DNA from: Saccharomonospora piscinae
GTDB taxonomy: Bacteria; Actinomycetota; Actinomycetes; Mycobacteriales; Pseudonocardiaceae
DNA length: 64,000 bases
Reading direction: 5' to 3'
Assembly: GCF_005862235.1 (NCBI RefSeq)
Contig: NZ_VCEK01000001.1
Coordinates: 372,001 to 436,000 of the forward strand
The first letter of the stretch is position 1, and each line of letters starts with the position of its first letter. Made by a program: the position numbers and the translations under genes. Positions 7,492 through 29,904 of the stretch are shown piece by piece. A model generated the notes under the pieces. That model ran no database searches, was not told the DNA's origin, and worked only from the letters and a program-made list of their open reading frames with translations.

Positions 7492-7565
7492 CCCCGAGCC
7501 GCCGCGACCCCACGGAGGTCGACGCGCCCCGAGCGAACCGGCCGCGAAACGGGCATCCCCCGGAC

Positions 7566-10368: not shown

Positions 10369-10661
10369 CAGACGGGCCCCCGCTCACCAGCACGGACACC
10401 GCGGACGGACGACGCGGCGACGGAACAACTATGACTCGGGTCGTCTTGCGACGACCCGGAACTCGCGGACGAGTCCATCAGCGGATTCACTCTCCAGCAC
10501 AAAAGGTACGTTTCGCTCATCGTATAAGCACCCGAGTACGAGCACGGGCCGCCGCCGAGCCGGACGGGACACGTCGAGTCGGTACCGCAGGCGAGCCGGT
10601 GTCAGTAAACTCTCGGTAGTTCGGCCAACCGATCTCGGATCGCAGGGTAGGCGGGTGGGGG

Positions 10662-12023
10662 ATGACAGGCGATCTCGCTCGCGCGGCGTCGCGGGCGCAC
10701 GTGTATCCGGCGTCGTCGACCCAGAGCCGTCTGATCATGATGCGCTACGCGCGGGGCGCGGTGCCCGCGCAGGTCGTCGGTGTGCATCTGCTGGTGCGGG
10801 GACCGTTGGACCTCGATCGGCTGCGGGAGGCGCTGGTGGCGCTCGTCCGCAGGCACACCATTCTGCGCACCAACTACGCGCTCGCCGAGTCCGGCGAGGT
10901 GCTGGCGATCCTGCACCAGTACGAGGGGCCGGACCTGTTCGAGCTGTGCGGCGAGACCGGATTGTCCGACGTCCGGGACATCGGCGACCACGTGAACACC
11001 CTGCTCGGGCGGATCGTTGACCGGTTCACGTCCCCGGACCGGCACTCGATACTCCAGGCCGTTGTCATTCCGCACGTGGCGGACCTGCACAGCCTCGTCC
11101 TGGCGATCGATCACATCGCCGTCGACGAGCGTTCCAAGGCCGTCCTGCAGAGCGAACTGGCCGTGCTGTACGCGGGTGAGGGCGACACCCTCGCCGAGCC
11201 GCATCCCTACGACGCGGCCGGGGTCCGCAACACGTTCCCGGAGATCGACGAGGTGGCGGGGCTTAGGGACCTGCTCACGCCGCTACCACCGCGGTTTCTG
11301 CCCAGCCCGGACCCGCGTGGTGAACCGGGATCGTTCCGGCCGGTGATGGCCACCCGCACGCTCGGCGCGGCGGTCCGGGAGCGCATGGAGGCGTCGTCGC
11401 GGCGGCATCGCTGCACCCGATTCGTCCTGCACGTCGCCGCGGTCATGTGGGCGCTCAAACAGTTCTCCGAGTCCGACGACATCAGCCTCGTCATTCCCAT
11501 GGACACGCGGCGGCGGCCTCAGGACTTCGACACGGTCGGCTTCTTCCAGAACCTGGTCCTGCTGCGTTCCCGCTCACCGCGCGCGGCGGGTCTCGGCGGC
11601 ACCCTGGAAGAATGCCGGTCGCTCGTCCGGGACGCCTTCGGGCGCCGCGACTATCCGATCGCGACCCTCATGGCCGCCGCCCGGGCCGAGCGTGGGGCCG
11701 TGCCGTGCCGCAATCCCCTCTATCAGGTCGCGCTGCTCTACGCGACCGAAAACGTCGATCTCGGCTGGACGCTCGACGGCGTCGAGGTCACGCCGGTGGA
11801 ACTCGACTTCCCCGAGGCGCCCGTCGAGTTGTCCGTCTACCTCACCGAGTCCCCGTCCGACACCGAGGCGATGCTGGTCGGCGCGGCGGGCGCGCTCGAC
11901 GCGGGCGACCTCGACAGACTGCTCGGGTCGTGGCGGGAGGCGATGCGCGAACTCACCGGCGCGCACCCCGCCGGGGCCGCATCGGAGCCCGCCGATCAGC
12001 TGTTCGGTTCGTCGACGAGGTAG
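10662..12023 (+). CDS. Free-standing condensation-domain protein
   Basis: 453 residues over the length of a single NRPS condensation domain, with no A or carrier domain attached. The N-terminal ASSTQSRLIMMRY resembles core C1 and LRTNY resembles C2. The active-site motif normally HHxxxDG reads DHIAVDE at 150-156: the catalytic second His (His151) and Asp155 stay, the first His is Asp and the Gly is Glu. It could form an amide or ester bond in trans, or release the chain. GGGGG directly precedes the ATG. It is convergent with, and overlaps by 28 bp, the last exporter gene. Confidence 0.8.
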   Translation: MTGDLARAASRAHVYPASSTQSRLIMMRYARGAVPAQVVGVHLLVRGPLDLDRLREALVALVRRHTILRTNYALAESGEVLAILHQYEGPDLFELCGETGLSDVRDIGDHVNTLLGRIVDRFTSPDRHSILQAVVIPHVADLHSLVLAIDHIAVDERSKAVLQSELAVLYAGEGDTLAEPHPYDAAGVRNTFPEIDEVAGLRDLLTPLPPRFLPSPDPRGEPGSFRPVMATRTLGAAVRERMEASSRRHRCTRFVLHVAAVMWALKQFSESDDISLVIPMDTRRRPQDFDTVGFFQNLVLLRSRSPRAAGLGGTLEECRSLVRDAFGRRDYPIATLMAAARAERGAVPCRNPLYQVALLYATENVDLGWTLDGVEVTPVELDFPEAPVELSVYLTESPSDTEAMLVGAAGALDAGDLDRLLGSWREAMRELTGAHPAGAASEPADQLFGSSTR

Positions 12024-13750
12024 CCGGCGCGCTGCGCGTCGTACAACCGTGCATACAGCGGCACGTCGAGTAGTTCGGCATGCGGGCCCACCGCGACGAC
12101 GCGGCCCTCGTGCAGCAGGATCACCTCGTCGGCCTCCGGTGCCAGCGACATCCGGTGGGTGACGATCACGGCGATGCCGTGCCTGTTCCGGGTGACCGCG
12201 CGCGCTCGGTCCATCAGCCGGTCGAGCAGCGTCTCCTCGGCGATCGGATCGATGGCCGAGGTGGGTTCGTCGAACAGCAGCACCGGCGCGTCCGCACGCA
12301 GGAAGCCCCGCGCCAGCGCCACGCGCTGCCATTGGCCGTGTGAGGGCCGCGTGCCATGGGGCATCGTGGCCCCCAGCTCGCGCCCGAGACCGGCGCCGTC
12401 CTGCCCGGCCCAGTGTTCGAGCCCGGCGAGGTTCACCGCGTGCGTGACGTCGGCGTCGGTGAACCGGTCGTCGCCGAGCCGGACCGCGTCGCGCAGCTCG
12501 AACTCCAACTCGGCGAAATCCTGCGTGACGGCGGTGACGTCGGGTGCGCACCCGCCCGCCGTCCGGATCTCTCCGGAGCTGGGCTGGACCAATCCGCTCA
12601 GCAGGGTCACCAGGGTGGTCTTGCCGCTGCCGTTCGCGCCGACGAGAGCGTAGGTCCGGCCTGCGTCGAGTCGCAGCGAAACGTCGTGCACCGCTGGCGT
12701 CTCGGCGCCGGGATAGCGGTAGGACACGTCCCGGAGTTCGATACCGGTGCTGTCACCGGTGTCCTGGAACCGCCGTGACCCGGGGCGCAGCCGCCGGTAC
12801 ACGCGGTTGAGCGCGCGGACCACGCGGATCGAGTCGGCGCAGGAAGTCAGGTAGCGTGCCAGCGCGCCCACCAGCGACGTCGTCGTCGAGAGCAGCAGCA
12901 ACGAGGCCAGAGTCGTCGCCAGGTCGGTGGTGCCGTGGTCGAGAGCGTGGACGAGCCCCGCGATACCCACGGCCAGCGCCGCGCTGGTCAGGACCGCACC
13001 GAGTGCGGTCCACCGCGCGCCACGCCACAGGCCCGCACTTCTGGTCGCCTCCGCCGCCTCGGCCGCGCGGCGGTGCGCTTCCAGGACGAACTCGCCGCCC
13101 CGGGACAGCAGCAGCTCTCCGGTGTGCCGCTCGTCGGTCCCGATGCCCGCGAGTTCCGCGCTCGTCCGCGCGTGCTCCGCCGCGGCGCGCTGGGCCGCGC
13201 CGACCGCCGCCTCCCTGCGCCGGACGCACAGGTACGCACCGATCGCCGCGACGGGCAGCAACAGCAACCACGGGGTCGCCAGCACGGTGATCAGCACTGT
13301 GCTGCCCAGCCGGACACTCGTACCGAGGATCAGACCGACCACGTCGGCGCCCTCGGTGAGCCGCGGCTGCTCTGAGCGCACGATCTGCAGGTCGTCGAGG
13401 AAGGAGCGCTCGGAGAAGTGTTCGATGGAGCGGACACCGTAGAGCGCACGCTGCAGATCCTCGTCGACGAGCCGGTTCGTCGCGTCCACCAGCCGGGCCG
13501 AGACGGTGAGCGAGTAACGCCCGAGCAGTACCTGCGCCGCCAGCGCCGCACACGCGACGCCGAGGAACACGACACCCGCCGAGAACTCGTCCGCCGCCCA
13601 CCTGGCCACCATCACCGCGATCGCGACGGACGCGGCGACTGTGGCGACGGGGCGGACCGTGAACGTGAGGACAGTGATCCACGCGGCCCTGGAGTCCGCC
13701 CGGAACGACAAGCGAAGCAGTTCGCGAAGCGCACCACGAAACGTCATCAC
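11996..13750 (-). CDS. ABC exporter half-transporter (TMD-NBD), second of pair
   Basis: 584 residues: an exporter-type membrane domain at about 1-300 and an ATPase at about 335-580. Walker A is GANGSGKTT and Walker B VLLFDEPTS, followed by a switch His in VTHRMSL. The signature motif, normally LSGGQ, reads PSHGQ, so this may be the half that contributes a degenerate ATP site in a heterodimer. Its ATG overlaps the stop of the upstream half-transporter by 4 bp, so the two are cotranslated. It is the last gene of the biosynthetic operon and probably exports the product. Confidence 0.9.
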   Translation of the reverse strand: MMTFRGALRELLRLSFRADSRAAWITVLTFTVRPVATVAASVAIAVMVARWAADEFSAGVVFLGVACAALAAQVLLGRYSLTVSARLVDATNRLVDEDLQRALYGVRSIEHFSERSFLDDLQIVRSEQPRLTEGADVVGLILGTSVRLGSTVLITVLATPWLLLLPVAAIGAYLCVRRREAAVGAAQRAAAEHARTSAELAGIGTDERHTGELLLSRGGEFVLEAHRRAAEAAEATRSAGLWRGARWTALGAVLTSAALAVGIAGLVHALDHGTTDLATTLASLLLLSTTTSLVGALARYLTSCADSIRVVRALNRVYRRLRPGSRRFQDTGDSTGIELRDVSYRYPGAETPAVHDVSLRLDAGRTYALVGANGSGKTTLVTLLSGLVQPSSGEIRTAGGCAPDVTAVTQDFAELEFELRDAVRLGDDRFTDADVTHAVNLAGLEHWAGQDGAGLGRELGATMPHGTRPSHGQWQRVALARGFLRADAPVLLFDEPTSAIDPIAEETLLDRLMDRARAVTRNRHGIAVIVTHRMSLAPEADEVILLHEGRVVAVGPHAELLDVPLYARLYDAQRAGYLVDEPNS

Positions 13751-15540
13751 CGCACCGCTTCCTCATCCGGTGCGCGGTAGCGCGCTGCCTGCGAGTCGAA
13801 CATGCGCGCGTACGTGCCGCCGTGGGCCATGAGCGTCGCGTGCGAACCGCGCTCCCGGATCTCGCCCGTGTCGAGCACGAGGATCTCGTCCGCGCGCCGG
13901 ACGCCCGCGAAACGGTGGGACACCATGACCGTGGTGCGATCCGGCCCGGCCAGCTCGCCGAGTTCGGCGAAGAAGCGCGCCTCGGCCTGCGCGTCGAGCG
14001 CGGCCGTCGGCTCGTCCAGCACCAGCACCCGCCGGTCGTCGTCGACCATGCCCGCGAGCGCGCGTGCGGTCGCGACACGCTGCCACTGCCCGCCGGAGAG
14101 ACCACTTCCGCCACCCGTCGCGGCGGTGGATCCCGGTGCCGCCCGGTCCTGCGGTGCGGCGCCGAGATCACCGAGCAGGGCCAGTACCCTCGGATCGCGT
14201 GCGCCGACGCTGGACGCCCGCCCCAGCGCGACGTTGTCGTACACCGGCACCGGATAACGGACGTACTGCTGGCCGAGGAAGGCGAACGAGTGCCGCCACG
14301 CGGTCCGCGACCTCGCGGCGGACACCTCGACACCGTCGCAGAGAATCCGCCCCGAACTGGGCGCGAGCAGCCCGACGAGCAGTTTCAGCAGGGTCGACTT
14401 CCCGGCGCCGTTGACCCCGACGACGGCCAGGCTCCGCCCGAGTCGCACCTCGAAGCTCAGCTCACAGAAGACCGGCTCGGCCGCACCGGGGTAGCCAAAC
14501 GTCACCCGGTCGAACCGGATCGTGCTGCCCGGCCCCGCGTGCGGAGCCGCCGTGTGTGTCGCCACCGGCCGTGGCCGCGTTCCCGCCGTCGCGGACCGCA
14601 CGCGGGCGAACACCTCGGCTCCGGTCGCCGAGTGGACCGCGTCCATCGTCACGCCGAACAGCAGCATCAGTGCCACCAGCGAGGACACGCCCATCACCAG
14701 CCGCGACGGAGCCACACCGGACTGTGCGAGCACGCTCAGCGCGAACGCCATCGAGCCGACCGCGAGCGCCAGCGCCGCCAGCAGCCGTGGGCGGATGCGC
14801 GTGGCCGGGCGGGCACCGTGCGCGGCGGCACGGAATCTGCTGATCACCCAGTCGGCCGCGCGGAAGACGATCACCTCGCGGGCCGTGCGGCGGTCGAAAG
14901 CGAGGCCGCCGAGGTACCACGCGCGCACGCTCTGGTCGTCGGTCGAGTAGGCCGCCGACTGCTCGGCGCGGTAGTCCCTTTCCATCAACACCGACAGCGT
15001 GACGAACGCCGCCAGCACGGGCAGGCCCGCGACCGGCTCGACGAACACGAGCACGAGTCCCGGGATCACCGCCTGCGCGCGCAACAGGAGGTAGCGCACG
15101 GTCGACACCACGAGCCGCCGGATCGGTGGTGCGGACCCCAGCGCGTCGAGCGCGGCCTGAAGTGCGTGCGGCGTCGCACCGGGTGCGTCGAGCCGGGCGC
15201 GGACCAGTGCCTGTTCCGATTCGGCCTGCAGGCGCCCGCCATAGCGGTCGGCGAGGACGTCGATCACCATGTTGGTGAGCTGGTCGAGTAGGAAGAGCGC
15301 CACGAACAGCGCACCCGCCAGGGCCAGCCCCGACGCGCCGCTGGCGGCGCTGCCCAGGACGTGCCCGACCGCCACGATGGACGCGGCCGGCACCGAACCG
15401 CCCGCGAGGACGAGCAGTGCGATCCCGACGGTGAACCCGGGCAGCAGCCGCCACCCCAGCGCGAACAGGCGCAGCCGCCTGCCGAACCTGATGCTCGCCC
15501 GCGAGACGCTGTGGGGCTCGTGTGGTTGCCGTCGGGTCAC
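13747..15540 (-). CDS. ABC exporter half-transporter (TMD-NBD), first of pair
   Basis: 597 residues. Membrane domain at about 15-320, ATPase at about 360-590 with Walker A GVNGAGKST, intact signature LSGGQWQ, Walker B VLVLDEPTA and switch His in VSHRFAG. With the downstream half it would form a heterodimeric exporter with one canonical site. The GTG at 15540 overlaps the TGA of the KS-ACP gene (GTGA), which ties the transporter to the biosynthetic operon. A longer in-frame start at 15627 would lie within the ACP coding region and is not preferred. Confidence 0.9.
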   Translation of the reverse strand: MTRRQPHEPHSVSRASIRFGRRLRLFALGWRLLPGFTVGIALLVLAGGSVPAASIVAVGHVLGSAASGASGLALAGALFVALFLLDQLTNMVIDVLADRYGGRLQAESEQALVRARLDAPGATPHALQAALDALGSAPPIRRLVVSTVRYLLLRAQAVIPGLVLVFVEPVAGLPVLAAFVTLSVLMERDYRAEQSAAYSTDDQSVRAWYLGGLAFDRRTAREVIVFRAADWVISRFRAAAHGARPATRIRPRLLAALALAVGSMAFALSVLAQSGVAPSRLVMGVSSLVALMLLFGVTMDAVHSATGAEVFARVRSATAGTRPRPVATHTAAPHAGPGSTIRFDRVTFGYPGAAEPVFCELSFEVRLGRSLAVVGVNGAGKSTLLKLLVGLLAPSSGRILCDGVEVSAARSRTAWRHSFAFLGQQYVRYPVPVYDNVALGRASSVGARDPRVLALLGDLGAAPQDRAAPGSTAATGGGSGLSGGQWQRVATARALAGMVDDDRRVLVLDEPTAALDAQAEARFFAELGELAGPDRTTVMVSHRFAGVRRADEILVLDTGEIRERGSHATLMAHGGTYARMFDSQAARYRAPDEEAVR

Positions 15541-17234
15541 TCCCCGAGTTCCTGTTCGACGAGATCCACGATCGCCGCCACGGTGTCGGCCGCGAACAGG
15601 TCCAGCACCTCGAGACTGACTTTCCACCTGGCCTCGAAGACGTTGGTGATGGCCACCACGTCCACGGAGTCGATCCCGAAGTCGAGAATCCCGACCTCCA
15701 TCACCTGCTCGTCGCTGAGGTGGGCGAAATCCCCGCGCTCCCGCAGCAGCCTGATCAGCACCCCGGCGATCTCCTCCCGCGCGGGGAGGATTCCGGTGTT
15801 GTCCCCCGCCGGGGAGAGTCGCTGGTCCTCGTGCGCTGGCGGGGCAGCCGGGACAGCCGAGGCCGTCGCGGCAGCGGCGACGACCGTGCCGGCCGAAACA
15901 CCGTCTCCAGCGGTGGCACCCGGGTCGTCGGGGTCGCGTTCAGCGGACAGCACCAAGTGAACGCTGGTGCCGCTCGCGCCGAACCCGCTGATGCCGGCCA
16001 GGGAGGTCCCTGACGGGAACACAGTGGGTCCGGTGGACGGTTGGGCGGTCCAGTCGCGCGCGTCCGGGCCCAGTTCGGTGAAGTTCGCCGTCGGCGGGAT
16101 CCAGCCACGCTTGATTCCGAGCAGCACGTTCACCAGGGACGCGACGCCGGCGGCCGTGTCGAGGTGTCCCAGCGTCGGTTTCACCGAGCCGACCGGCAGG
16201 TGTGTGCGGCGCGAACCGAACACCTCGTGCAACGCGCCCAGCTCGACGAGGTCACCAACGGGAGTGCCCGTGCCGTGCCCCTCGACGTAGGCGAAGTCGT
16301 CCGGCCCGACGCCCGCGTCCGCCATCGCGCCGCGGATGACCCGTACCTGCCCGTCGAACGCGGGCGCGGCGTAGCTCGCCCGCTGCCCGCCGTCACTTCC
16401 CGAGTGGATTCCCTCGATCACCCCGTGAATCACGTCGCCGTCGGCGACCGCGTCGTTGTAGCGACGGAGCACGACAACCCCGCCCCCGCTGCCGCCGACG
16501 GTGCCGTCGGCGGCAGCGTCGAACGCCCGGCACACCCCGGTGGGAGACAGAATTCCCCCACGCTGCCACCGGTAGCCGCGGCGGTCGGGGAAGTACAGGG
16601 CCGCCGCGCCGGCCAAAATGGTGTCGGTCCGTCCGCTGCGCAGCAGCAGAACCGCGTGGTCCACCGCGGCCAGCGCCGTCGAACACGCGGTCTGCACGTT
16701 GACGCTCGGCCCCGTCAGGCCGAGGCGGTGGGAGACCCGCCCCACGCAGTGGTCGCTGCTGTTGCCGATGAGAACCTCGGGGAAGGCGAGCTGGTCCCGC
16801 AACGCGGCATCCCGCTGGATCCGGGTCGTGAAATGGGAGTCGAGCGAATGGCCCGCGTACAGGCCCATCCCGATACCGCCCACGACACCGATGTCGCGGC
16901 CGCGAACACTGTCCGGGCTCATGCCCGCATCGCGCAGCGCCCCGGCGCAGCAGTCGAGAAACAGCAGGTGCTGCGGGTCCGTGACCGCCAGCTCGTGTGC
17001 GCTGACGTCCCCCAGGTGGCGCGCTGTCCGCGGGGTCCACTCCGCGCGGGCCGACCGGGCGACGTAGTCGTCCCGGGTGAACTCCGATTCCGGCACGCCC
17101 GCGGCGAGCAGCTCACTGCGCGACACGTCCACGACGGCGCTCTTCCCGGACGCGAGGAACGAGTCGATCTCCGCGCGCTCACGCCCTGCGGGAAGGCAGA
17201 CGTCGTACCCCACGATCGCGATCCTGTCGCTCAA
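15537..17234 (-). CDS. Ketosynthase-ACP didomain protein
   Basis: 565 residues. The ketosynthase (about 1-425) has the complete triad: Cys184 (TACST, usually TACSS), His320 (EGHGTGTP) and His357 (KPTLGH, usually KxNIGH). A linker with Ala/Pro precedes an acyl carrier domain whose phosphopantetheine Ser is Ser523 in GIDSVDVV. There is no acyltransferase, so extender units must be loaded in trans. The TTG start at 17234 overlaps the upstream TGA (TTGA), with AGGAG about 6 nt upstream. It would perform one Claisen extension of a chain carried by partner carrier domains. Confidence 0.88.
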   Translation of the reverse strand: MSDRIAIVGYDVCLPAGRERAEIDSFLASGKSAVVDVSRSELLAAGVPESEFTRDDYVARSARAEWTPRTARHLGDVSAHELAVTDPQHLLFLDCCAGALRDAGMSPDSVRGRDIGVVGGIGMGLYAGHSLDSHFTTRIQRDAALRDQLAFPEVLIGNSSDHCVGRVSHRLGLTGPSVNVQTACSTALAAVDHAVLLLRSGRTDTILAGAAALYFPDRRGYRWQRGGILSPTGVCRAFDAAADGTVGGSGGGVVVLRRYNDAVADGDVIHGVIEGIHSGSDGGQRASYAAPAFDGQVRVIRGAMADAGVGPDDFAYVEGHGTGTPVGDLVELGALHEVFGSRRTHLPVGSVKPTLGHLDTAAGVASLVNVLLGIKRGWIPPTANFTELGPDARDWTAQPSTGPTVFPSGTSLAGISGFGASGTSVHLVLSAERDPDDPGATAGDGVSAGTVVAAAATASAVPAAPPAHEDQRLSPAGDNTGILPAREEIAGVLIRLLRERGDFAHLSDEQVMEVGILDFGIDSVDVVAITNVFEARWKVSLEVLDLFAADTVAAIVDLVEQELGE

Positions 17235-20200
17235 CCGCCGCTCCTGTTCTGACTCGTTTCGATGTGGTCCGCGAGTGCGGCCAGGGTCGGATACCGCATC
17301 AGCTCCAGCACACCGACGGTGTGGCCGGTGTGTTCGGTGACGACGCGCGCCAGGTTCGGCATGTCCACCGACGTCAGCCCCATCTCGAACCAGCTCCGGC
17401 CCAGGCCCAGGACGTCGGGACCGAGAAGCGGGCGCACCACGTGGGCGAGTTCCACGGCGGCGGGTGGCCACCCGGCCAGGTCGGGTGCCTCACGGTCCGC
17501 GCTCGCCGCGGCAGACGCGGGGGTGGCCGGATCACCCGCTCGCTCGGCGACGAGCGGCGTGTGCTCGCCCACACCGAGCAACACGGAGCGCGTGGGCCCC
17601 GCCACCAGGCATGCCGCGAGATCCATGACGCTGACCTCCTCGAGGCCCAGCGCCTCCGCGACCGCCACGTCCGCCTCGCCGGTCTGCCGGGCCTCGCGCA
17701 CGGAGGTGACCGACACGGTCGTTCTCGGCACCGCCGCCGCCCGTTCCGCGATGATCTCGGACGCGGCGCACGCCGCCGCGTAGAACTCGACTCCCGTTCC
17801 CCCGAGGTGGGCGTTGACCGACGACACGATCGTCAGGTGGGCGTCCAGGCAATGGGCCAGCTCCACGGCCGCGCGGACCCCGTCGGTCTTCGGGCCGACG
17901 AGCCGCTCGACCCTGTCCTCGGGTGCGGGCCTCGGCGCTCCGGCCAGGTGAACCACCTGGGTCCGTTCCCCGGCATTCCACCCGAGTTCGTCCACCAGCC
18001 CGCGCACCGCCGCTGCCGAGTTGAGGTCGACGCCGATCCGGTCGATTCCCCCTGCCGTACCGCTGCGCCCCCGGGCGGGGCGGCCGACGAGCGTGACCCG
18101 CGCGCCGCGCAGCGACAGTTCGGCACCAAGCGCCTCACCGAGCCGACCGGTACCGCCGACAAGGACGAAATGGTCCGCCCGCGAGGAGTCCCGCTCGGCG
18201 GGAACCGGTACGCGAAGCCGCCGCCAGAGGTCACCACGCGGACCCACGAAGAGGTCCGCGGTCGTGCCCTGAGCCAGCTCGTCGTCGAGGACGTCCTCCA
18301 GCGTCCGCTGCTCCACGACGGGATGCGCCCAGACTGTGCGCACCGACCGGGCTCCGGCACCGTGCGCACGAGCGCGCAGGAACGCCGCCACCGGATGAGA
18401 CCGGGGCAGACGCTCCGCCCGCCCCTCGTGTGCCTCGATGACGACGCAGACGTCCCGCCCGCGTAGCCGGGCGGGTTCGACGGCGTGGTGCCAGTGTTCG
18501 AGCAGGTCGTGCAGCTGGTGCGGGTGGTAGTCGGACACCGCGGAGTGGACCAGCCCCGGACCGCGCAGGATGACCGGCCCCTCGGCCCGGCGCGACCGCC
18601 GGGTTCCGGGCACCGCCGCCGCGGGTGTCCACGCCAACTCCCACAGTCGCGCGGGATCGGGGTCGATGAATCTGTCCACCAGCTTGCCCTTGCGGACCTT
18701 GCCGATACTCGTCCGCTCGATCGCCGCGGCGGGAACGTCGAGCACGTGGTCGACCGGAATGCCGATGATCTTCTCAACGCGGCGTCGCACGTCGGCGCAC
18801 ACCGCGGCGACCTCCCCGTCGACCGAACAGAACACGGCGATCTCATCGCGCTCGGCGGGACGTGCCCGGTACGAGGTGACCACCGCTGTGCCCGGGACGA
18901 CGCCGTCGACCTGCTCGATCTCGCCTTCGAGGTCGGCGGAGTTGAAGGTCACGCCGTTGGCGACGATCCTCGTGCCGTCCCGGCCGACGATGTGTACCCC
19001 GTCGGCGTCGATCCGGGCGAGGTCGCCGGTCCGGAACCAGCCGTCGGCGCTGCCGGTGAGATCCCCTCCGACCAGGTAGCCCTCCAGCACCATCGACCCG
19101 CGGACCTCCAGATGCCCCACGCCCTCCTCCGCGACGTCGCTGGCGGCCGAGATCCGGACCTCGGCCCCCGGAAGCGGGAACCCCACCGAGACGGTGAGCG
19201 AGGTGTCGGCGGTCGGGTCGTAGCGCGGGCGGTACAGGACCCCCGAGCAGGTCTCCGCCATACCCCAGGCGGGAGCGAACGTGCGGGCGGGCATGCCCAG
19301 TCTGCCCAGCGACCGCTCGAAACGGGCGCAGTCGCCGGCCGACACCGCCTCTCCCCCGTTGAGGCAGAACCGGATGCTACTCAGATCCACCCGCCCGTCG
19401 AGCGGGATCTGCTCCGCCACACCCGCCAGGAGCCGATACGCGAAGTTGGGCGACCACACCGCGCTCACCCGGTGCTCGGTCACGATCCGGAACCATTCAC
19501 GCGGGTCGGCGAGGATGCGCTCGGGCGCGACCGAGATGTGCTCGGCCGCGAGGACGGCGTCGCGGACATGGGCCATCAGGATGCCGCCGACGTGGGACAG
19601 CGGCATCCAGTTGAACCCGACCGTGGTGGAGTCGAGGCCGTTCACCGCCACCGCACCCAGCGCCATGTCGATGATGCCCCGGTGACGCTGTGGCACCACC
19701 TTCGGCGTGCCCGTGCTGCCCGACGTCATGAAGTGGACCCGCGAGTCCGGGCTGTCGCAGGCCCCACCAGCCGGCCCGGGCCCGCCCGTGGCGCGGTCCA
19801 GATCGAGCGGGACCGGTGTGATACCCCACTCCGCAGTCTCCGCAGCCTTCACAGCCTCCGACACGACCCGGAATCGCGTGCCCTCGGCGTGGACGAGGGC
19901 ACGGATCGGTGCGTGCTCGGCGAGCGCGGCCAGCCACGCGCCGCTGTCGTCCCGGCCGTCGAGAAGTTCCGCCGGAACCAGCAGCGGCTCGATCCCCGCC
20001 ACGACGCTGCCCCAGAACAGCGCGAGGATCTGCGACGGTTCGGTCGCCGCCACGACCGCGATGGAACCGACTTCGACGCCACGCTCCCGGATATCGTCGG
20101 CGATACGCCGGACACGGTCACGAAAGCCGTGCCAGCTCTCCCGCCGCCACGACCCGCCGGAGTCGACGGTGGTGACGCCGGCGGAACCTTCCGCCGCCCG

Positions 20201-20299: not shown

Positions 20300-20300
20300 G

Positions 20301-21377: not shown

Positions 21378-21389
21378 CTCGTCGCCTCC

Positions 21390-24300
21390 TCAGATCAGCG
21401 AACGCACGGCGTCGCTCAGTTGACCGACTGTCGGATTGTCGAAGATCAGCGCCACTTCGAGATCGGTGTGCAGTTCCTGGTTCAGGATCGCGATCATCCG
21501 GATCGCGTCGATCGAGTCGCCGCCCAGATCGAAGAAGTCGTCCTCGTCCCGGAACTGGGCGCCCTCGTCGAGCACCCGCTTCCAGATCCCCCGCACCAGC
21601 TCGGGCACGTGACACTCGGCGCCCCCGGTGCCCCCGGTGCCCGCGATCTCGGAGTTCGCACCGCCGGAGACCGCGTACTCGTCGGCCAGTGCGCGCAGCG
21701 CGGCCACGATGTCGGCCCGCTGGTCGGCCCGAATCGTGCCGAGAACGTGCGACAGGGCCCCGCCGAGGTCCCCAGCCGGCGACGGAGCCAGGTTGAGTGT
21801 CTCGGTCGGGCTGACGACCGCCCAGCGGTTCAACGCGAACACCGTAGCGCCGCCAGCGCCGCCAGCGCCGTCGTCGGGTTCCCGGCCACTTGTCCGGGCG
21901 ATGACGAGCCGATCCGGCACATCCTTCGCACCGACCCTGCCTGCCAGGCCCACCATCCCCGTGGCCAGCAGCGCCACGGTGGCCTCGAAGGCGGTGTCGA
22001 CATCGATCACCACCGCCGACGAGCCCAGTGAGGCCGGCTCTTCCTCCGCGAGGATCCGTGCGGACGCCCGGGCCTTCGAGACGAGAAAATCGAGCGGGCA
22101 GGACCGCCCGTCAAGGGCTACCTGCGCGGCACCGCGATCACCGACCGGCAGCGCGAGGCCGCGGACCAGCCGGGCCAACAGGTCCGGCTCGACCGCCGCG
22201 GGAGCGAACCGCTCCGCGAGGCCACCTCTCAGCCGCGCCAGGAGCCTGTCGCCCTCGTCCCGGGAGAGAAAGCCGTGGGCCGCGTCGAGGGACAGCTCGA
22301 CCGCGCCATCCGCACGCTGGGTGAACGTCACGGCCAGCGGGAAGCGCACCACGTCGGTGGGCATCGACACCTCCTCCACCCGGTGCCCGCTCAGCGCGAA
22401 GGATTCGAGGTTGTCCCACGACACCGTCACCGTGGGGGTCTGCACCCGGCGGGTGACGTCGTGGAACACCTGCCGGAACGTGAGGGAACCGTGCTCGATC
22501 CCCGACATGATCGAGCTTTTCGCGGAAGGCGCGGACCCGTCGGTCGTCGAACCCATCCAGAACGGCACCAGAACGGCGCCACTGCCGTACTCCACCAACG
22601 ACGGCCGAGCCGGGAACGCATACAGGTGGTGGCGCCCGAGCGTGTCATCGATGATTTCGGCTGCCGCGCGCAGCGCCTCGACGAAAGACGTCGACCGCTC
22701 GGCCCGCGCGTACGCCGCGAGACCCTCTCGCAGGCCGTCCGGCAGCGGCGCCGACACCCGGTATCCGCGCCGGTCAAGCGTGCGCGCGTCGAACCCGGCG
22801 TCGAACACCTCGTCCGGGAGGGCGGCCACCCAACCGTCCCAGTACGCGCGATCCCGGTCGCGGACATCCTTCTCGATCTGCGCCGCCGCCGGAATCCGCT
22901 GCACCTCGACCGGCCGGCCCGCGTAGCGCTGGGCCACGGACTCCAGCAGTTCGGCGAACCGCATGCCGTCCAGCACGATGTGTGAGGCCCGCAGGTTGAC
23001 GAGCACCCCGTCACTGGAGCGCTGGCAGGTCATGCGCACACCGCAGCGCAACGCTGGGTCGAGCGGGAGATCGAAAGACTTCGCCTTGACCTCGGCCTCG
23101 AACGCCTCCGCCGACTCCGCGACACCGTCGAGCAGATGCCAGCTGCTCCGGTGCGCCTCACCGAAGGGTTCCACCCAGCCTCCGGCCCCATCCGGATCGA
23201 GGCGGAGGCGATACGCGGGTTGCGCCTCAAGCGCGTCGAGATAGGCCCGCCGCAGCCGATCGAGGTCGACCTCAGGGGAGATGCTGAACGTGCGCGCGAT
23301 GACGTAGGCCTCGCGCGTCTGCGCGCCGAGCTGGCACGCGGCCCAGATCTCGCGGGCGGCTCGGCTGATCGTGACGGGAAACGACGGTCCCCGCACCACG
23401 GACTCCGCCACCCGCACGGGCACGGCACCCTTGCCCGCTTCGCCACCGGTACTCGCGCTCGAGTGGTCCATCCTCGGCGGGTCGGTCGAGGTGCCCGGAA
23501 CGGCCTCCACCCGATCCGGCGCGGACGGCCGGTGGCCGTCCAGCCGGGCACGCAGCCTACCCAACGCCCGTACCGTGTCGCTCCACGCCGGGCCGTGCGG
23601 CAGGAAATCGACGAGACACGCGATCTCGGTCACGCCGAGCTGCGCCAGCCTGGCCGTCAGCGCGGGCCACTCGTCCTCCGCGCCCACCAGCGACAGCCCC
23701 GAACGCAAACGGTGCGCCGCCGTCCTCATCCGCGACTTCCACACGTCCGCCGAAACCGAGTCCGGGTCGTCATGGGTACTCCGGAACGTGGCGAACATGT
23801 AGCGCTCGAGCGCCTCCACGTTCCGTTCCTCCGAAGCACCGTCGGTCGACACGGCAGCGTGCACAAGAACCGTGACGTTCCCGCCGTCCGGGGAAAGCCC
23901 ACCGTCGCGGCGCCCCTGCCGGTAACGTTCGAGGTTGCTGGTCAGCTGGTCGAGGTCCTGCTGAATCAGGTTGGTCAGCACACCACGGCCCTCTCGCCCC
24001 GCCTCGTAGAACGAGTCCGGCGAACCCACACACGCCTGCCAGAGACGAAGATCGCTCACCGGGCGGGGATGCAGGCGCACGTCAGCCCGCTCACCCGAGT
24101 GCCCCTCGACCGCCACAGCCTCGCCGCACCAGAGGCGCTCCAACTCCGACAGCCGCTTCCGGAAAAGCGCGCGACGTTCGGAATGCGGCGCGTCGGAGAG
24201 CACGAAGTCACGTCTCATCCAGCCCGACGCCACGCCGAGCCCGACCCGCCCACCGGAGGCGACGTCGACCATCGCCCAGTCCTCCGCCACCGACACCGCC

Positions 24301-26567
24301 GAATGCAACGGCAACACGCTGCTGCCCGCCCGGATGCCGAGACGCGACGTGCGGGCCGCGACCATCGCACCGAGCACGGCCGGGTTCGGCGAGAAACCGG
24401 CGAAGTCGTCGAAGTGCCGTTCCGGCAGCCACACGTTCGCCAGGCCCTCGGCCTCGGCGTGCTCGACCAGGTCGAGCAGCCGCGAGTAGACGTCGTTCTC
24501 ACCGTTGGCCGCGAAACCGAACAGCGCCAGGCTGACCGCGGGCGACCGCTGGTCGAGCGCCTCGCTCCGGGGCTCTCCGCCGCCGGAGAGCCGCCTCGCC
24601 GCGCGGGCTACCGCGTCGAGGACGGCGGCGCGCACCGGCGAAGTGTGGGCGGGAGACAAAAAACAGTTCCCGGTCTCCGGGATCAGCACCCCTTCGGCGA
24701 TCATCGCACGCCGGAACTCGTGGAATGCCTTCCCACCGTAGGCGAAACTCGTCGAACCGGCCGGGACGAACCGGAAGAACGAGCCGGTCCCCAGCACCCG
24801 CACGGCGATGTCGGCCTCGGCCAGAACCCGCGCGATCCCGGCGCGCAACTCGTCACCCGCGGCGTTGAGTTCGGCGAGCACGCTGTCCCCGTCCTCTGCC
24901 AGCCGGCCGAGCACAGCACGCGCCGCGACCACCGAGAGCGGGTGCTTGGCGTAGGTCCCGCCGGTGAACGACACCCTGTCGGGGTCGGCGCGGAGCTTCT
25001 CGGTCCACGGCCCACCGTCGATCAGATCCATGACCTCGGACCGCCCCGCCACGGCGGCCAACGGCAGACCAGCCGCCAGCGTCTTGCCGTAGGTGGCGAG
25101 ATCCGCGCGGACACCGTAGAGCTCCTGGAAACCACGAACGTGGAAGCGGAACCCGGTCAGCACCTCGTCGAACACGAGAAGCGCGCCAGCCTGCTCGGTG
25201 AGCTCACGGGCCAGCCGCGCCAGGGGCCCGAGGTCGAGATCGGGCGACTGGTTCAACCGGGGCTCCATCACGACGGCCGCGACATCCTCGCCGTGCGCGG
25301 CCATGAAGTCGGTGAGGTGCTGCTCGCTCACCGGCAGGACCCGCACGTCCTCGGCCGCACCGGCGGAGACACCGGGAAACGAGGGGGCCGCGAGGTGTTC
25401 GCGGCGCTTGCCGGGGCGCGGGCTGAACAGCGTGGAGTCGGAATGGCCGTGGTAGGCGTTCTGCAGCAGGACGACGAGTGAGCGCCGGGTGTAGGCACGG
25501 GCGAGACGGACGGCCGTGAACACCGCCTCGGTTCCGGTGACGCAGAAGTTCACGCGATCCAACTGGGTGAGCTCACACAACAGCCGCGCCACGTCCGCGG
25601 TCTGCTCGACCTCCGCGCCGATGTGCAGTCCCCGCTCAAGCTGCTGCTGAACGGCGTCGCGGACGAAGCCGGGATTGTGCCCGAACAGATGGGCACCGTA
25701 ACCCATCGTGAGATCGATGAGCTTGCGCTCGTCGACGTCCCACACATGAGCCCCGTCGGAGCGGGTGATCCAGATCGGATACGACGCCGCACGCTCGTCG
25801 TGCTCGCGCTGGGCGATCTTGCGGTTGTTGCACAGGCTGACCTGACTCCGCTCGCTGAGCCGGCGCGAAGCGGCCGTCGCGGCCGCGTACGGCACGCCCT
25901 GCGGGCGCTGCTGGGGCTCGGGCCGCGCCGCCGGAGTCGACACCGGGTCGCGGGTCGCCGCGTCCCGAGCCGGCTCGTCCGTGACCCGACGCTGCGCACT
26001 CGCGGGTGTGCCGTTCGCGTGTGCGGGAACGGGTTGGGTGTTGTTTTTCGGTTGGGACTCGGTGACCCATCGCGCGATCGCGCGGACTGTGACGATGTCT
26101 TCGAGGAGTTGCTGGACCGAGATATCGACACCGAACTTGGACTCGATCTCCCGCGACAACTCGACCAGCACGAGGGAGTCCGCTCCCAGGTCCAGCAACG
26201 GAACCGAACGGTTTATCGACCCCGCGTCCAGCTCCAGCAACCGCTCGCCAAGACCCGCCACAACATCCTCGACGGCGGGTTCGCCTCTCGCGGGTGTGCC
26301 GTTCGCGTGTGCGGGAACGGGTTGGGTGTTGTTTTTCGGTTGGGACTCGGTGACCCATCGCGCGATCGCGCGGACTGTGACGATGTCTTCGAGGAGTTGC
26401 TGGACCGAGATATCGACACCGAACTTGGACTCGATCTCCCGCGACAACTCGACCAGCACGAGGGAGTCCGCTCCCAGGTCCAGCAACGGAACCGAACGGT
26501 TTATCGACCCCGCGTCCAGCTCCAGCAACCGCTCGCCAAGACCCGCCACAACATCCTCGACCTGCAA
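21390..26567 (-). CDS. Megasynthase: ACP-ACP-aminotransferase-luciferase-like monooxygenase-C-(A remnant)-PCP
   Basis: 1725 residues. Two nearly identical ACPs carry Ser35 and Ser131 in LGADSLVL. A class III PLP aminotransferase follows (about 255-660; PLP Lys in YGKTLAAGLP). A flavin luciferase-like monooxygenase of the MupA/Atu3671 type comes next (about 670-1000; WLPERHFDD, IRAGSSVLPLHS). A condensation domain (about 1060-1490) reads SHIVLDG in place of HHxxxDG. A stretch of about 150 residues looks like the first part of an adenylation domain without cores A3-A10. A PCP with Ser near 1685 (LGGDSIDAI) ends the protein; there is no thioesterase. TTG at 26567 is chosen for GGAGGGG 5 nt upstream; GTG at 26642 is possible. 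Confidence 0.85.
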   Translation of the reverse strand: MQVEDVVAGLGERLLELDAGSINRSVPLLDLGADSLVLVELSREIESKFGVDISVQQLLEDIVTVRAIARWVTESQPKNNTQPVPAHANGTPARGEPAVEDVVAGLGERLLELDAGSINRSVPLLDLGADSLVLVELSREIESKFGVDISVQQLLEDIVTVRAIARWVTESQPKNNTQPVPAHANGTPASAQRRVTDEPARDAATRDPVSTPAARPEPQQRPQGVPYAAATAASRRLSERSQVSLCNNRKIAQREHDERAASYPIWITRSDGAHVWDVDERKLIDLTMGYGAHLFGHNPGFVRDAVQQQLERGLHIGAEVEQTADVARLLCELTQLDRVNFCVTGTEAVFTAVRLARAYTRRSLVVLLQNAYHGHSDSTLFSPRPGKRREHLAAPSFPGVSAGAAEDVRVLPVSEQHLTDFMAAHGEDVAAVVMEPRLNQSPDLDLGPLARLARELTEQAGALLVFDEVLTGFRFHVRGFQELYGVRADLATYGKTLAAGLPLAAVAGRSEVMDLIDGGPWTEKLRADPDRVSFTGGTYAKHPLSVVAARAVLGRLAEDGDSVLAELNAAGDELRAGIARVLAEADIAVRVLGTGSFFRFVPAGSTSFAYGGKAFHEFRRAMIAEGVLIPETGNCFLSPAHTSPVRAAVLDAVARAARRLSGGGEPRSEALDQRSPAVSLALFGFAANGENDVYSRLLDLVEHAEAEGLANVWLPERHFDDFAGFSPNPAVLGAMVAARTSRLGIRAGSSVLPLHSAVSVAEDWAMVDVASGGRVGLGVASGWMRRDFVLSDAPHSERRALFRKRLSELERLWCGEAVAVEGHSGERADVRLHPRPVSDLRLWQACVGSPDSFYEAGREGRGVLTNLIQQDLDQLTSNLERYRQGRRDGGLSPDGGNVTVLVHAAVSTDGASEERNVEALERYMFATFRSTHDDPDSVSADVWKSRMRTAAHRLRSGLSLVGAEDEWPALTARLAQLGVTEIACLVDFLPHGPAWSDTVRALGRLRARLDGHRPSAPDRVEAVPGTSTDPPRMDHSSASTGGEAGKGAVPVRVAESVVRGPSFPVTISRAAREIWAACQLGAQTREAYVIARTFSISPEVDLDRLRRAYLDALEAQPAYRLRLDPDGAGGWVEPFGEAHRSSWHLLDGVAESAEAFEAEVKAKSFDLPLDPALRCGVRMTCQRSSDGVLVNLRASHIVLDGMRFAELLESVAQRYAGRPVEVQRIPAAAQIEKDVRDRDRAYWDGWVAALPDEVFDAGFDARTLDRRGYRVSAPLPDGLREGLAAYARAERSTSFVEALRAAAEIIDDTLGRHHLYAFPARPSLVEYGSGAVLVPFWMGSTTDGSAPSAKSSIMSGIEHGSLTFRQVFHDVTRRVQTPTVTVSWDNLESFALSGHRVEEVSMPTDVVRFPLAVTFTQRADGAVELSLDAAHGFLSRDEGDRLLARLRGGLAERFAPAAVEPDLLARLVRGLALPVGDRGAAQVALDGRSCPLDFLVSKARASARILAEEEPASLGSSAVVIDVDTAFEATVALLATGMVGLAGRVGAKDVPDRLVIARTSGREPDDGAGGAGGATVFALNRWAVVSPTETLNLAPSPAGDLGGALSHVLGTIRADQRADIVAALRALADEYAVSGGANSEIAGTGGTGGAECHVPELVRGIWKRVLDEGAQFRDEDDFFDLGGDSIDAIRMIAILNQELHTDLEVALIFDNPTVGQLSDAVRSLI
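25999..26561. repeat. Tandem 275-bp identical copies encoding ACP1 and ACP2
   Basis: Copies at 25999-26273 and 26287-26561 read identically by eye, with a 288-bp (96-codon) period and 13 bp of unique sequence between. Each holds one carrier domain and its linker. Exact identity at every codon position points to a recent duplication or continuing gene conversion, and it is a place where assemblies can collapse. Confidence 0.9.
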
Positions 26568-26919
26568 TCCAACCCCTCCAGTCGCGACGCTCACAGCGTG
26601 AACTGCCAAGGTCGCGAAATGCGGCCGCCCACGCTCGAACACCCCAGTGTGCCCGGTTCATCCGTCCTGCGAATCGGCCCCACAATAGCATCGGACACCG
26701 ACTCGGGGAATGGATTGAGACGACTCCCCGGAACGACTCGGACCACTACTCCGAACCGGCGGGGAAAGATTAGACCGTTAGGACCTAGACGCGACCAAGC
26801 CAAGCCAGCAGAATAGCCCACCGTTCGGCACGACCGCCTTGCGGAGATACAAATCCACCAATATAACTATTGCGCGCAGCGCACCGACAAGCAATCCCTG
26901 TAATTGGGTTGGGCGACGT
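26568..26919. other. 352-bp non-coding gap inside the cluster
   Basis: No supported gene. It lies between the free-standing KS stop (26920) and the megasynthase TTG (26567), the only large gap in an otherwise packed operon, and is visibly richer in A/T than its flanks. It may hold a separate promoter for the megasynthase. One weak candidate on the minus strand is TTGTCG (complement of 26885-26890) and TATATT (complement of 26860-26865) with 19 bp between. Confidence 0.5.
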
Positions 26920-28113
26920 TCACACCGAGCTGCGGGAGACGATCGCGTGCGCGTTCGTCCCCGAAAGCCCGAGCGCACTGACTCCCACATTGATAATCGA
27001 CTCGGGATAGTCGACATCACCGATCGCCGGCCGGATGTTGTGCGCCGCCCACGGGATCCTGTCACTGGGCTGCCCCGAGACCGCGCCGCCGGGCGGTCGC
27101 TGCAGCCGAAGCGTTTCCATGGCCACGACCAGTGAGAGCAGACCCGACGCCGCCTCGAGATGTCCGAAACGGGGCTTGTTCGACCCGACGAGCAGCGGTG
27201 CCGGACGATCCGCCGTCCGATAGGCCGCCGCGAGCGCGGCCATCTCGATGGGATCGCCGAGCGGGGTCCCCGTCCCGTGCGCTTCGACGTAGTCGACGTC
27301 GACACCGGCCAGCCCACTCATACGCAGTGCCCGCTCCACGACATCGCGCTGCGCGTCAGGATTGGGCACGGTCAACCCGGCCGTGCGGCCGTCGTGGTTG
27401 ACGGCGCACTGCACCCGCCCGAGCGAACGCAGTTCCGAGCTCTCGGGGGCGAGGACCACGGCCACCACGCCTTCACCGATGGTGAACCCGTCGGCCGCCG
27501 CATCGAACGCACGACACTGGCCGGTGGGAGAAAGCGCCCCGGTGACCTGCCGGATCATCGTGCCGAACTCGCTGCGCACGAGGTGACTCCCGACGACGAG
27601 CGCAAGGTCGACCTCACCGGTCGCGAGTGCGGTGATGCCGTGCCGGAGCGCGACCAGCCCGGACGAACAGGTCGTGTCCACCTGCCAGCAGGGACCATGC
27701 AAGTCGAACGCGTAGGAGACCCGACCAGCGGCCGCGCCACGACTGTTCCCGATCCCGAGGTAGGAACGATTGCTGTCGGCGACCTGATCGACGTCGATGG
27801 TATGCACGAAGTCGGACTCGCCCATCCCGACGAACACACCGGTCTGGCTGCCCGCCAGCTCCTCCGGCCGAACACCGGCGTCACCCAGCGCACGCTCCAC
27901 ACAATCCAGAATCACAAGATGCTGCGGGTCCATCACCCGCGCCTGGCGCGGCGAGATCCGCAGCCGGACCGGATCGATCGCGAACTCGGCATCGTCGAAC
28001 ACCGTGGACCGATCGCCGGCACCAACGCTGTCGAAGTGAACCACGCCGATGTCCTCGCGACTGCGTACACCGCCCGGCAAAAACAGCGACGCTCCGACGA
28101 CGTGTACGTCCAA
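26920..28113 (-). CDS. Free-standing ketosynthase
   Basis: 397 residues, slightly shorter than usual modular KS domains, with nothing fused. The triad is complete: Cys149 (DTTCSS), His279 (EAHGTGTP) and His318 (KPRFGH, where KxNIGH is usual). The TTG at 28113 has GGGAGGG 8 nt upstream, and no ATG is placed better. Lacking its own carrier or acyltransferase, it must act in trans, most simply on the tandem ACPs of the next gene. Two KS proteins in the cluster suggest two extension steps, or one condensing and one supporting role. Confidence 0.87.
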   Translation of the reverse strand: MDVHVVGASLFLPGGVRSREDIGVVHFDSVGAGDRSTVFDDAEFAIDPVRLRISPRQARVMDPQHLVILDCVERALGDAGVRPEELAGSQTGVFVGMGESDFVHTIDVDQVADSNRSYLGIGNSRGAAAGRVSYAFDLHGPCWQVDTTCSSGLVALRHGITALATGEVDLALVVGSHLVRSEFGTMIRQVTGALSPTGQCRAFDAAADGFTIGEGVVAVVLAPESSELRSLGRVQCAVNHDGRTAGLTVPNPDAQRDVVERALRMSGLAGVDVDYVEAHGTGTPLGDPIEMAALAAAYRTADRPAPLLVGSNKPRFGHLEAASGLLSLVVAMETLRLQRPPGGAVSGQPSDRIPWAAHNIRPAIGDVDYPESIINVGVSALGLSGTNAHAIVSRSSV

Positions 28114-28167
28114 CTCTTGCCCTCCCTGCCCGACGGCTGCGCTCGTCAGCCGACGTGAGTGCCGTCC

Positions 28168-29709
28168 TCAACCCTGTTCCCGCGCCACCGACATCGCCGG
28201 ACCAGACCAGTCCGACAACAACAGCCTGCTCTTGTCGAGCTTCCCGCTGAGCGTCAACGGGATGGTCTCGAGCACAACGAACTCACGCGGAATCGCCGAC
28301 ACGGGCAACGACTCCCGGAGGAAGCCGCGCAACGATCTCGGCTCCGGCGGTGCGCCCGGATCGGCGGCGACAAGGTGCGCTCGGAGCCCGGCATCCGCGT
28401 CGTAGCTGACAACCGCGTCGCGCACCGCCGGAGACCGCCGCAACGCCGCTTCCACCTCGCCCAGCTCAACCCGCTGCCCGTGAATCTTGACCTGACGGTC
28501 CTCCCGCCCGAGAAACTCCACGTCGCCACTGGCCAGCTTCCGGACCCTGTCACCGGTACGGAAGGCACGCGCGCAGGTACGCTCGCCCGGTGCGCGGTAA
28601 CCGGCGGGCAGCGGCACGAAACGCGCCCGAGTCGCCGCGGGCGCGCCGATGTAGCCCAATGCCACACATTCACCCCACACCAGCAACTCGCCGGACTCAC
28701 CCGGCGCCACCGCCCGAAGATCGGCATCCACCACCTCGACCGACACCCCGCCCAGCGGCCTGCCGAGCGGCACAGTCGCAGCGCCGCGGTGCTCCGTTCG
28801 ACGGGAGTCGACAAGGTAGGTCAGCACCCCGACCGTGGTCTCGGTCGGACCATAGTGATTGAGTACCTCGCAGGCGCCAACAGCTTTCACCTGGTCGACA
28901 AGCTCCCAGGTCAACGGTTCGCCACCGAAGATCATCAGCTTGCGCGGCAGAACGTCGCCCGCACCCAGGCCCACATGCACCGAGACGTGCGACGGGGTGG
29001 ACTTGAGCACATCGATCGAATGCGCGCGCACATAGTCCCCGAGCGCGAGCGGGTCCCGCATCGTCGCCCTGTCCACGAGGTGAACCACATCGCCGGAGAC
29101 AAGCGCCGGAAAAATCGCGGTATGCCCAAGATCGGTCGCCAAGCTCGTCACGCTGGCACACGACAGCGCAGCGCCCTGAACCCTGACCCGGTCCAGGACC
29201 ACGGACAGCCGCCTCGTGTAGTTGTCGAGCGCCCTGTGCGGGACCGCCACCGGCTTGGGTGTCCCCGTACTCCCCGACGTCGAGACCACGTAGGCGGCAT
29301 CGTCCCGACCGGGCGAAGCCATCAGGGGCTCAGGCCCTCCGCCGGCCCCGAGCCGCACGACCGGCACGCCCTCGATCACCTCAGCCTCCGACTCGGCCAC
29401 AAGCCGCGTCGCCAGCGACGCACGAAGCTGCGCCCGCTGCCGGGACACCGGCTCGTCCAGGTCGATGACCACGAACGGTGAACCCAGCCACAGGCACGCC
29501 AGCGCGGCGACGACCTGACCAGTACCACGAGCAAGCGCGATCGCCGTCACGTCACCGTCGAGCAACCCGTGACGCCGCATCTCGCCCGCGGCATCCGCGA
29601 CCCGCCGGACAAGCATGGCGTAGGTCAGCGTCCCATCACCAGCGACCAACGCGGGACGATCAGGACACCACCGCGCGTTCTCCACCAGCTTCCGCGTGAT
29701 CCATGCCAT
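28168..29709 (-). CDS. Free-standing NRPS adenylation domain
   Basis: 513 residues, a complete adenylation domain without carrier: A3 VSTSGSTGTPKPVAVPHR, A5 NHYGPTETTVG, A7 FRTGDRV, A8 GREDRQVKIHGQRVELGEVE, A10 Lys in TLSGKLDKSR. The A4 region reads SLATDLGHTAIFPAL rather than the common FDxSV, so the binding pocket is not the standard alpha-amino-acid type and I do not predict the substrate. It probably loads the PCP at the end of the megasynthase, whose own A domain is degenerate. ATG at 29709 is chosen; GTG at 29712 is equally possible. First gene of the operon. Confidence 0.88.
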   Translation of the reverse strand: MAWITRKLVENARWCPDRPALVAGDGTLTYAMLVRRVADAAGEMRRHGLLDGDVTAIALARGTGQVVAALACLWLGSPFVVIDLDEPVSRQRAQLRASLATRLVAESEAEVIEGVPVVRLGAGGGPEPLMASPGRDDAAYVVSTSGSTGTPKPVAVPHRALDNYTRRLSVVLDRVRVQGAALSCASVTSLATDLGHTAIFPALVSGDVVHLVDRATMRDPLALGDYVRAHSIDVLKSTPSHVSVHVGLGAGDVLPRKLMIFGGEPLTWELVDQVKAVGACEVLNHYGPTETTVGVLTYLVDSRRTEHRGAATVPLGRPLGGVSVEVVDADLRAVAPGESGELLVWGECVALGYIGAPAATRARFVPLPAGYRAPGERTCARAFRTGDRVRKLASGDVEFLGREDRQVKIHGQRVELGEVEAALRRSPAVRDAVVSYDADAGLRAHLVAADPGAPPEPRSLRGFLRESLPVSAIPREFVVLETIPLTLSGKLDKSRLLLSDWSGPAMSVAREQG

Positions 29710-29904
29710 CACGCAAGAACCTACCGGCCTCCCCCACACCCCAGAAGGGCCAAAAGAGCGAGACTCAGAACCGGCCGGGCACACCGCGACGCTGCGGTGT
29801 GAGACACAACGGCAACGGGAACACTCATCCCACTGCCCCGGTTACCCCTGGTGGGGGCCACGCGGCCCCAAACCGCACCCGACATCGGCGGAGGAAACAA
29901 CCCC

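Follow-up and report, generated by a model that had tools for sequence, protein, structure and literature searches.

A nine-gene split PKS-NRPS cluster in Saccharomonospora piscinae with a predicted 3-amino-2-hydroxy-acyl-aspartate product

How might a hybrid polyketide synthase–non-ribosomal peptide synthetase (PKS-NRPS) assemble a product when its parts sit on separate proteins and neither an acyltransferase (AT) nor a thioesterase (TE) is matched among them, and what would that product be? This question is raised by a nine-gene locus (10662-29709) in a 64 kb stretch of the Saccharomonospora piscinae genome, hereafter the window (positions 372001-436000 of the contig; genome 4.9 Mb; G+C 70.8%). 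We put the probability at roughly 0.5 that the locus encodes a split hybrid PKS-NRPS making a small, aspartate (Asp)-containing 3-amino-2-hydroxy-acyl compound that is exported. The initial annotation of this locus is supported in part, in that the split PKS-NRPS, the exporter and the amino-hydroxy acyl group hold up, while the lipid tail implied by its "lipopeptide-like" product became less likely.

Gene layout and amino-hydroxy acyl chemistry

Domains were assigned from gene calls and Pfam matches at E ≤ 0.001 in all nine proteins. Eight of the genes lie on the minus strand, with a transcription order of free-standing adenylation (A) domain, ketosynthase (KS) 2, a megasynthase, a PhyH protein, a starter protein, KS1 fused to an acyl carrier protein (ACP) and two ABC exporter halves; the ninth, encoding a free-standing condensation (C) domain, faces them on the plus strand. 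AT and TE families gave no Pfam match in the nine proteins at this threshold, as the initial annotation had stated. Its parts list and coordinates, the compact PKS-NRPS architecture with parts on separate proteins and the paired ABC exporter were likewise borne out, and the starts that it gave at 26567 and 29709 fit the orthologues.

The centre of the cluster is the megasynthase (21390-26567, minus strand, TTG start), in which two tandem ACPs are followed by an aminotransferase (AMT), a monooxygenase (MOX), an inner C domain, a stretch of about 180 aa and a terminal peptidyl carrier protein (PCP). The class-III AMT (24663-25784; PF00202, 1.9e-47) has the mycosubtilin synthase MycA as its closest solved structure (6kfm, E 1.1e-69), and the FMN luciferase-like MOX (23553-24530) has PuwE (6ket, E 7.8e-59). 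The MOX also passes the cut-off of the MupA/Atu3671 family (TIGR04020, 280.2 bits versus 244.45), as do the counterparts in the two relatives tested. MupA carries out α-hydroxylation of an ACP-bound chain (PMC10952193), and the AMT and MOX of PuwE were proposed to form a 3-amino-2-hydroxy-acyl group (PMC4219810). A β-amine and an α-hydroxyl on the acyl chain, the amino-hydroxy acyl group of the initial annotation, are therefore a well-founded, if not proved, prediction from this kinship.

With a class-III AMT fused to a MupA/Atu3671-type luciferase-like monooxygenase, a carrier ahead of the pair and a C domain behind it, the protein resembles known AMT-MOX hybrid PKS-NRPSs. It departs from them in having no KS-AT in cis (the KS is separate and there is no AT), no A domain in cis after the C domain and no terminal TE. 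The inner C domain (22203-23390; PF00668, 2.9e-8) and the PCP (21405-21599; PF00550, GGDSIDAI, conserved in the four copies of the cluster described below) are separated by the ~180 aa stretch (21657-22193), which gave no Pfam match even at E 10. This stretch stands where an A domain would be expected, and it had been read as an A remnant; the stretch itself exists, while only a weak structural signal suggests that it is an A domain in decay.

Amino acid, starter acid and malonyl supply

The free-standing A domain (28168-29709, minus strand; PF00501, 2.2e-53, and PF13193) scores 295.9 bits against TIGR01733, just below the cut-off of 317.4. Alignment to LgrA gave the specificity code DLTKIGHVGK; the code is DLTKIGHIGK in two relatives and DLTKVGHIGK in Actinokineospora pegani. 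In published work (PMC3207962, table 2), DLTKVGHI belongs to SrfAB-M2-Asp, and two Asp-like modules of a pyoverdine synthetase carry DLTKIGHV, so that the A. pegani code agrees with SrfAB-M2-Asp at 8/8 printed positions and the window code with the Asp-like entry at 8/8. The window code also agrees at 9/10 positions with DLTKVGHVGK, a code given mostly for Asp (PMC12283262), while the exact code DLTKIGHVGK found no match in the literature search. Activation of Asp is the best prediction from the code, and Asp is the sole amino acid predicted for the cluster.

The starter protein (17231-20299, minus strand) consists of an adenylating domain, a ketoreductase (KR) and an ACP. The best solved relatives of its adenylating domain are the McyG starter domain (4r0m, 208.5 bits, 1.7e-60) and 6ulx (175.5 bits, 1.6e-50), followed by 7r7e, named only "Polyketide synthase", with 77 bits, and by 3pbk, the best chain named as a fatty acyl ligase, with 66.4 bits (1.4e-17). 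We take 6ulx and 6ulw to represent an α-keto-acid A-KR module, and the McyG domain presumably loads phenylpropanoid acids. In the cyanobacterial floridanemamide (fma) cluster, an A domain was predicted to load an α-keto acid, which then undergoes reduction on the assembly line before being extended (PMC13252402). Because of the kinship to McyG and 6ulx, together with the fma parallel, a keto, hydroxy or aryl starter acid is preferred to a fatty acid.

Both ketosynthases (PF00109/PF02801) come without an AT. KS1 is fused to an ACP (15537-17234, minus strand; PF00550), and KS2 stands alone (26920-28113, minus strand, TTG start). Part of the N-terminal lobe normal for a KS is missing from KS2, whose Pfam match begins at position 57, and two aligned relatives are alike in this. 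A comparison with a sister cluster in genome G059 (L032/L033), which belongs to the same genus as Saccharothrix sp. NRRL B-16348, bears on how the two KSs relate to the megasynthase. The sister cluster shares a KS-ACP-AMT-MOX line, an adenylating domain-KR-ACP protein, a second KS, a free C domain and an ABC pair, and it differs in several respects: its AMT-MOX is only 47% identical to that of the window, the KS is fused to ACP-AMT-MOX where KS2 of the window is separate, no C domain was matched in its megasynthase, an N-terminal A fragment just above the Pfam cut-off follows the MOX, and no PhyH match was found in the 36 kb examined. No AT was matched between its KS and ACP. It also has an M23 peptidase gene. 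KS2 is closer to the fused KS (42.5%, 229 bits) than to the other KS (32.8%, 145 bits), whereas KS1 is closer to the second KS (44%, 293 bits) than to the fused one (41%, 189 bits). KS2 being closest to the KS fused ahead of ACP-AMT-MOX, KS2 and the megasynthase were read as one module split in two. These arrangements are most simply read as a loss of the AT and A domains, with separate proteins taking over their tasks; that the change ran this way is our inference.

Since the cluster is without an AT, malonyl would have to be loaded in trans. AT families matched 43 times across the genome: 42 matches lie in open frames of at least 1869 aa and one in an open reading frame of 376 aa. The latter, FabD-like and the only one of discrete size, is located on another contig (C6:136613-137440), and its product would be the likeliest source of malonyl. 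Thus the modules without AT that mark trans-AT PKSs are present, and a discrete AT within the cluster is not. One PPTase-type match was found in the genome. Elsewhere on C6 lies a very large PKS region (584304-754622) whose open frames, the longest of 13084 aa, carry 34 of the 43 AT matches. Within the window, a further acyl-CoA ligase-like gene (51342-52817, plus strand; PF00501, PF13193) stands apart, more than 20 kb from the cluster.

A conserved cassette in four actinobacteria

All nine genes occur in the same order in Saccharomonospora sp. NB11 (G128) and Saccharothrix sp. NRRL B-16348 (G291). In A. pegani (G136), seven genes, including most of the megasynthase gene, lie on one contig, while the A gene, the KS2 gene and the start of the megasynthase gene are found at the end of another; its KS2 (L043) is 74% identical to that of the window. 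Protein identity to the three relatives is 61-87% per gene, and because the nine-gene set recurs at this level in three other organisms, it is beyond chance. The nine genes are a real, conserved cassette in four actinobacteria of three genera.

The cassette is sparsely distributed, being present in 2 of the 12 genomes of the genus. Across 297 genomes of the family, the AMT-MOX stretch found a match at E ≤ 1e-60 in 38, of which 11 were through a single match across both halves, and orthologues of at least 80% identity in 4, the window's own genome included. At the order level, a match at E ≤ 1e-120 was obtained in 3/397 genomes (the own genome, A. pegani and the sister cluster of G059), and at the phylum level in its own genome only (1/396). 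A scan of genome contigs returned at least 21 loci, four of which, from three organisms, are copies of this cluster. Another locus, from Kosakonia quasisacchari (L044, ~1-17400), has a hybrid line with a KS, a starter-type adenylating stretch, MOX, C and A domains that are 20-37% identical to this cluster.

Within the cassette, start and stop codons overlap at three junctions of the window: TTGA between the starter and KS1 genes, where KS1 begins with TTG; GTGA between KS1 and ABC 1 (13747-15540, minus strand; PF00005); and GTGATGA between ABC 1 and ABC 2 (11996-13750, minus strand; PF00005), where ABC 2 starts with GTG at 13750 or ATG at 13747, over or at the preceding stop. The starter/KS1 and ABC 1/ABC 2 overlaps recur in 3/3 relatives and that of KS1/ABC 1 in 2/3. 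On account of these overlaps, the genes concerned are very likely translated together. At the other end, the 3' ends of the ABC 2 gene and the convergent free C gene (10662-12023, plus strand; PF00668, 3.5e-22) overlap by 28 bases.

Active-site motifs are largely retained across the copies. The Cys-His-His triad is intact in KS1 of all four and in KS2 of the three copies aligned. The PhyH protein, a putative Fe/2-oxoglutarate dioxygenase (20301-21377, minus strand; PF05721, 7.7e-33), has its HxD motif (HQD) together with the distal His in each of the four copies. The serines of the carriers are retained, as are the Walker and A-domain motifs. ABC 2 has Walker motifs in four copies with a variable signature motif (SHGQ in the window). 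ABC 1 of NB11 showed no motifs, its frame having been taken from ahead of the likely start. The choice of residues that matter in these enzyme families follows general knowledge.

The twin ACPs of the megasynthase (26287-26561 and 25999-26273, minus strand) are an exact 275-nt direct repeat with a period of 288. Over the 216 nt compared, the twins are identical within the window and identical within NB11, with a difference of ~28% between the two species, and those of Saccharothrix are 78% alike. Identity within species together with divergence between them points to homogenisation within each lineage, which would resemble the concerted evolution of carrier domains; an assembly artefact is a possible source of identical twins.

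The surroundings of the cassette differ between organisms. When the 32 flanking genes of the window were compared with the regions of the relatives (35 kb in NB11, 36 kb in Saccharothrix, 18 kb in A. pegani), there was one good match, and the remaining matches were at 36% or less. An acyltransferase-3/SGNH protein (5305-7491, plus strand) matches at 54% over 690 aa the product of the gene adjoining the Saccharothrix A gene (L030, ~3050-5116), and the regions compared from NB11, A. pegani and G059 gave no match to it; this likeness reflects either chance, such enzymes being common, or a detached helper gene. A transposase gene adjoins the Saccharothrix copy (L029:1716-3083), and a phage-type integrase gene lies ~2 kb from that of A. 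pegani (L031:17236-18444), neighbours that hint at mobility of the cassette. Two adjacent genes were considered as further members and rejected. The aldo/keto reductase gene (29851-30735), a candidate tenth gene, occurs in 10 of the 12 genus genomes at E ≤ 1e-80 and in NB11 lies on contig C7 with the cluster on C29. The CNNM gene (8980-10368) had no match in the regions of the relatives and occurs in 4/12 genus genomes at E ≤ 1e-100.

Proposed pathway, rival readings and known relatives

Taken together, the following pathway is proposed. The McyG-like domain would adenylate a small starter acid and load it on its own ACP, with the KR reducing either this starter or the product of the first extension. 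KS1 and/or KS2 would then extend the chain with malonyl units, for which the genome's single discrete AT is the most likely trans-acting loader of the ACPs. On the twin ACPs, the AMT would convert the β-keto group to a β-amine and the MOX would hydroxylate the α carbon. The PCP has no A domain in cis and would receive Asp in trans from the free A domain; the inner C domain would join the acyl group with Asp. PhyH may hydroxylate an intermediate, the free C domain may join a last partner or release the product, and the ABC pair may export it. The predicted product is accordingly a small exported 3-amino-2-hydroxy-acyl-aspartate, perhaps with one more hydroxyl, and by analogy to amastatin and microginin perhaps a peptidase (aminopeptidase) inhibitor. 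The parts, the kept active sites, the conservation, the Asp code and the kinship of the AMT, MOX and starter domain provide the basis of this scheme in sequence; its order, the number of extensions, trans loading, the role of the free C domain, release, export of the product and bioactivity are our own extrapolation.

More tentatively, and at clearly less than an even chance, the cluster may be a dismantled type I PKS-NRPS in which the FabD of the host supplies malonyl and the free Asp-activating A domain serves the PCP, carried as a nine-gene mobile cassette, with twin identical ACPs kept alike in each species and a minimal one-residue aspartyl α-hydroxy-β-amino inhibitor as its product.

Several observations weigh against the proposed pathway. 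The KR retains Lys, Ser and Tyr in four copies with Cys replacing Asn, the usual residue at that position, it did not align to 6ulw, and it is the single KR alongside two KSs. The HHxxxDG motif is replaced in both C domains, by DHxxxDE in the free C domain of 4/4 copies and by SHxxxDG in the inner one of 4/4 (SHIVLDG, SHIVLDG, SHVVLDG and SHIVVDG), and because of these replacements the activity of the free C domain is above all uncertain. The code DLTKVGHVGK is shared with asparagine (PMC12283262), trans loading of the ACPs and the PCP is a deduction from the domain content, and no product has been linked to the cluster.

Other readings of the same genes were weighed. That the line continues past Asp, with the free C domain or KS1-ACP adding a second unit to give a larger or dimeric product, or with the free C domain passing the chain to an amine, would agree with the conservation of the free C domain and the extra KS-ACP in four copies; given that the nine genes hold no second A domain for an amino acid, it appears unlikely. 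Slightly less probable still is a lipopeptide, as suggested in the initial annotation, in which a fatty acyl-AMP ligase would serve as starter domain, yielding a β-amino-α-hydroxy fatty acyl amino acid similar to a one-residue microginin. Some known AMT-MOX lines do use fatty-acid starters, and the best NCBIfam names of the starter domain are fatty-acid ligases (PRK07768, MbtM and PRK09192), a further point against the preferred starter, albeit all far below their cut-offs. The much higher scores of McyG and 6ulx over the best fatty acyl ligase chain, the prediction of Asp alone and the KR following the starter domain, as for the keto-acid starters of fma (PMC13252402), weigh against this lipopeptide.

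A siderophore-like metal binder, in which Asp, possibly hydroxylated by PhyH, and the α-hydroxy-β-amino group would chelate iron, is improbable. PhyH is indeed an oxygenase, and a pyoverdine synthetase shares the DLTKIGHV variant of the Asp code (PMC3207962), while no uptake or ferric-reductase gene is present among the nine genes. Moreover, the Asp β-hydroxylases of siderophore pathways are of another type than PhyH. It is harder still to credit a decayed cluster without a product, as might be suspected from the missing AT and the megasynthase without an A domain, in view of the same layout, open frames and kept motifs in four organisms and of the start/stop overlaps that recur in the relatives. 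The split assembly line ending in an acyl aspartate thus remains our preferred reading.

The closest known chemistry is that of the cyanobacterial AMT-MOX lines of puwainaphycin (PuwE), floridanemamide (fma) and microginin (mic), which share with this cluster an AMT and MOX between PKS and NRPS modules and a 3-amino-2-hydroxy-acyl product, predicted in our case (PMC4219810, PMC13252402, PMC12250027); fma additionally shares a predicted α-keto-acid start with reduction (PMC13252402). The kinship rests on solved structures and papers. Unlike these lines, the cluster has separate KSs, no AT, a separate A domain with an Asp code, a single amino acid and no TE, and it is further set apart by two identical ACPs in tandem, an additional free C domain and PhyH. 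Microginins are also the source of the aminopeptidase-inhibitor analogy (PMC12250027). Among actinomycete products, the predicted N-terminal unit is reminiscent of amastatin and bestatin. Both are 3-amino-2-hydroxy-acyl peptides of actinomycetes, and amastatin also contains Asp. No amastatin or bestatin gene cluster was among the literature matches listed.

Judged by titles and the beginnings of abstracts, no description of this cluster was found among the literature matches listed, in a search that left MIBiG and most subscription journals outside. Hybrid clusters of Saccharomonospora were surveyed with antiSMASH and MIBiG (PMC7990883), the A. pegani genome was included in a cluster count (PMC9973853) and proteins of the Saccharothrix strain were cited (PMC5466765), the available portions of the latter two papers containing no description of the cluster. 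The "undescribed-looking" of the initial annotation is hence uncontradicted for the cluster, which is uncharacterised as far as could be searched, while its chemistry and logic were already known from cyanobacteria; the new part is the split, Asp-only arrangement.

Small, conserved and open to testing, the cluster is an example of an assembly line whose domains are distributed over separate proteins. Should trans loading hold true, it would offer an uncomplicated parts kit for making α-hydroxy-β-amino acyl amino acids, which form the warhead in several aminopeptidase inhibitors, and the G059 sister cluster would represent another stage of the same dismantling.

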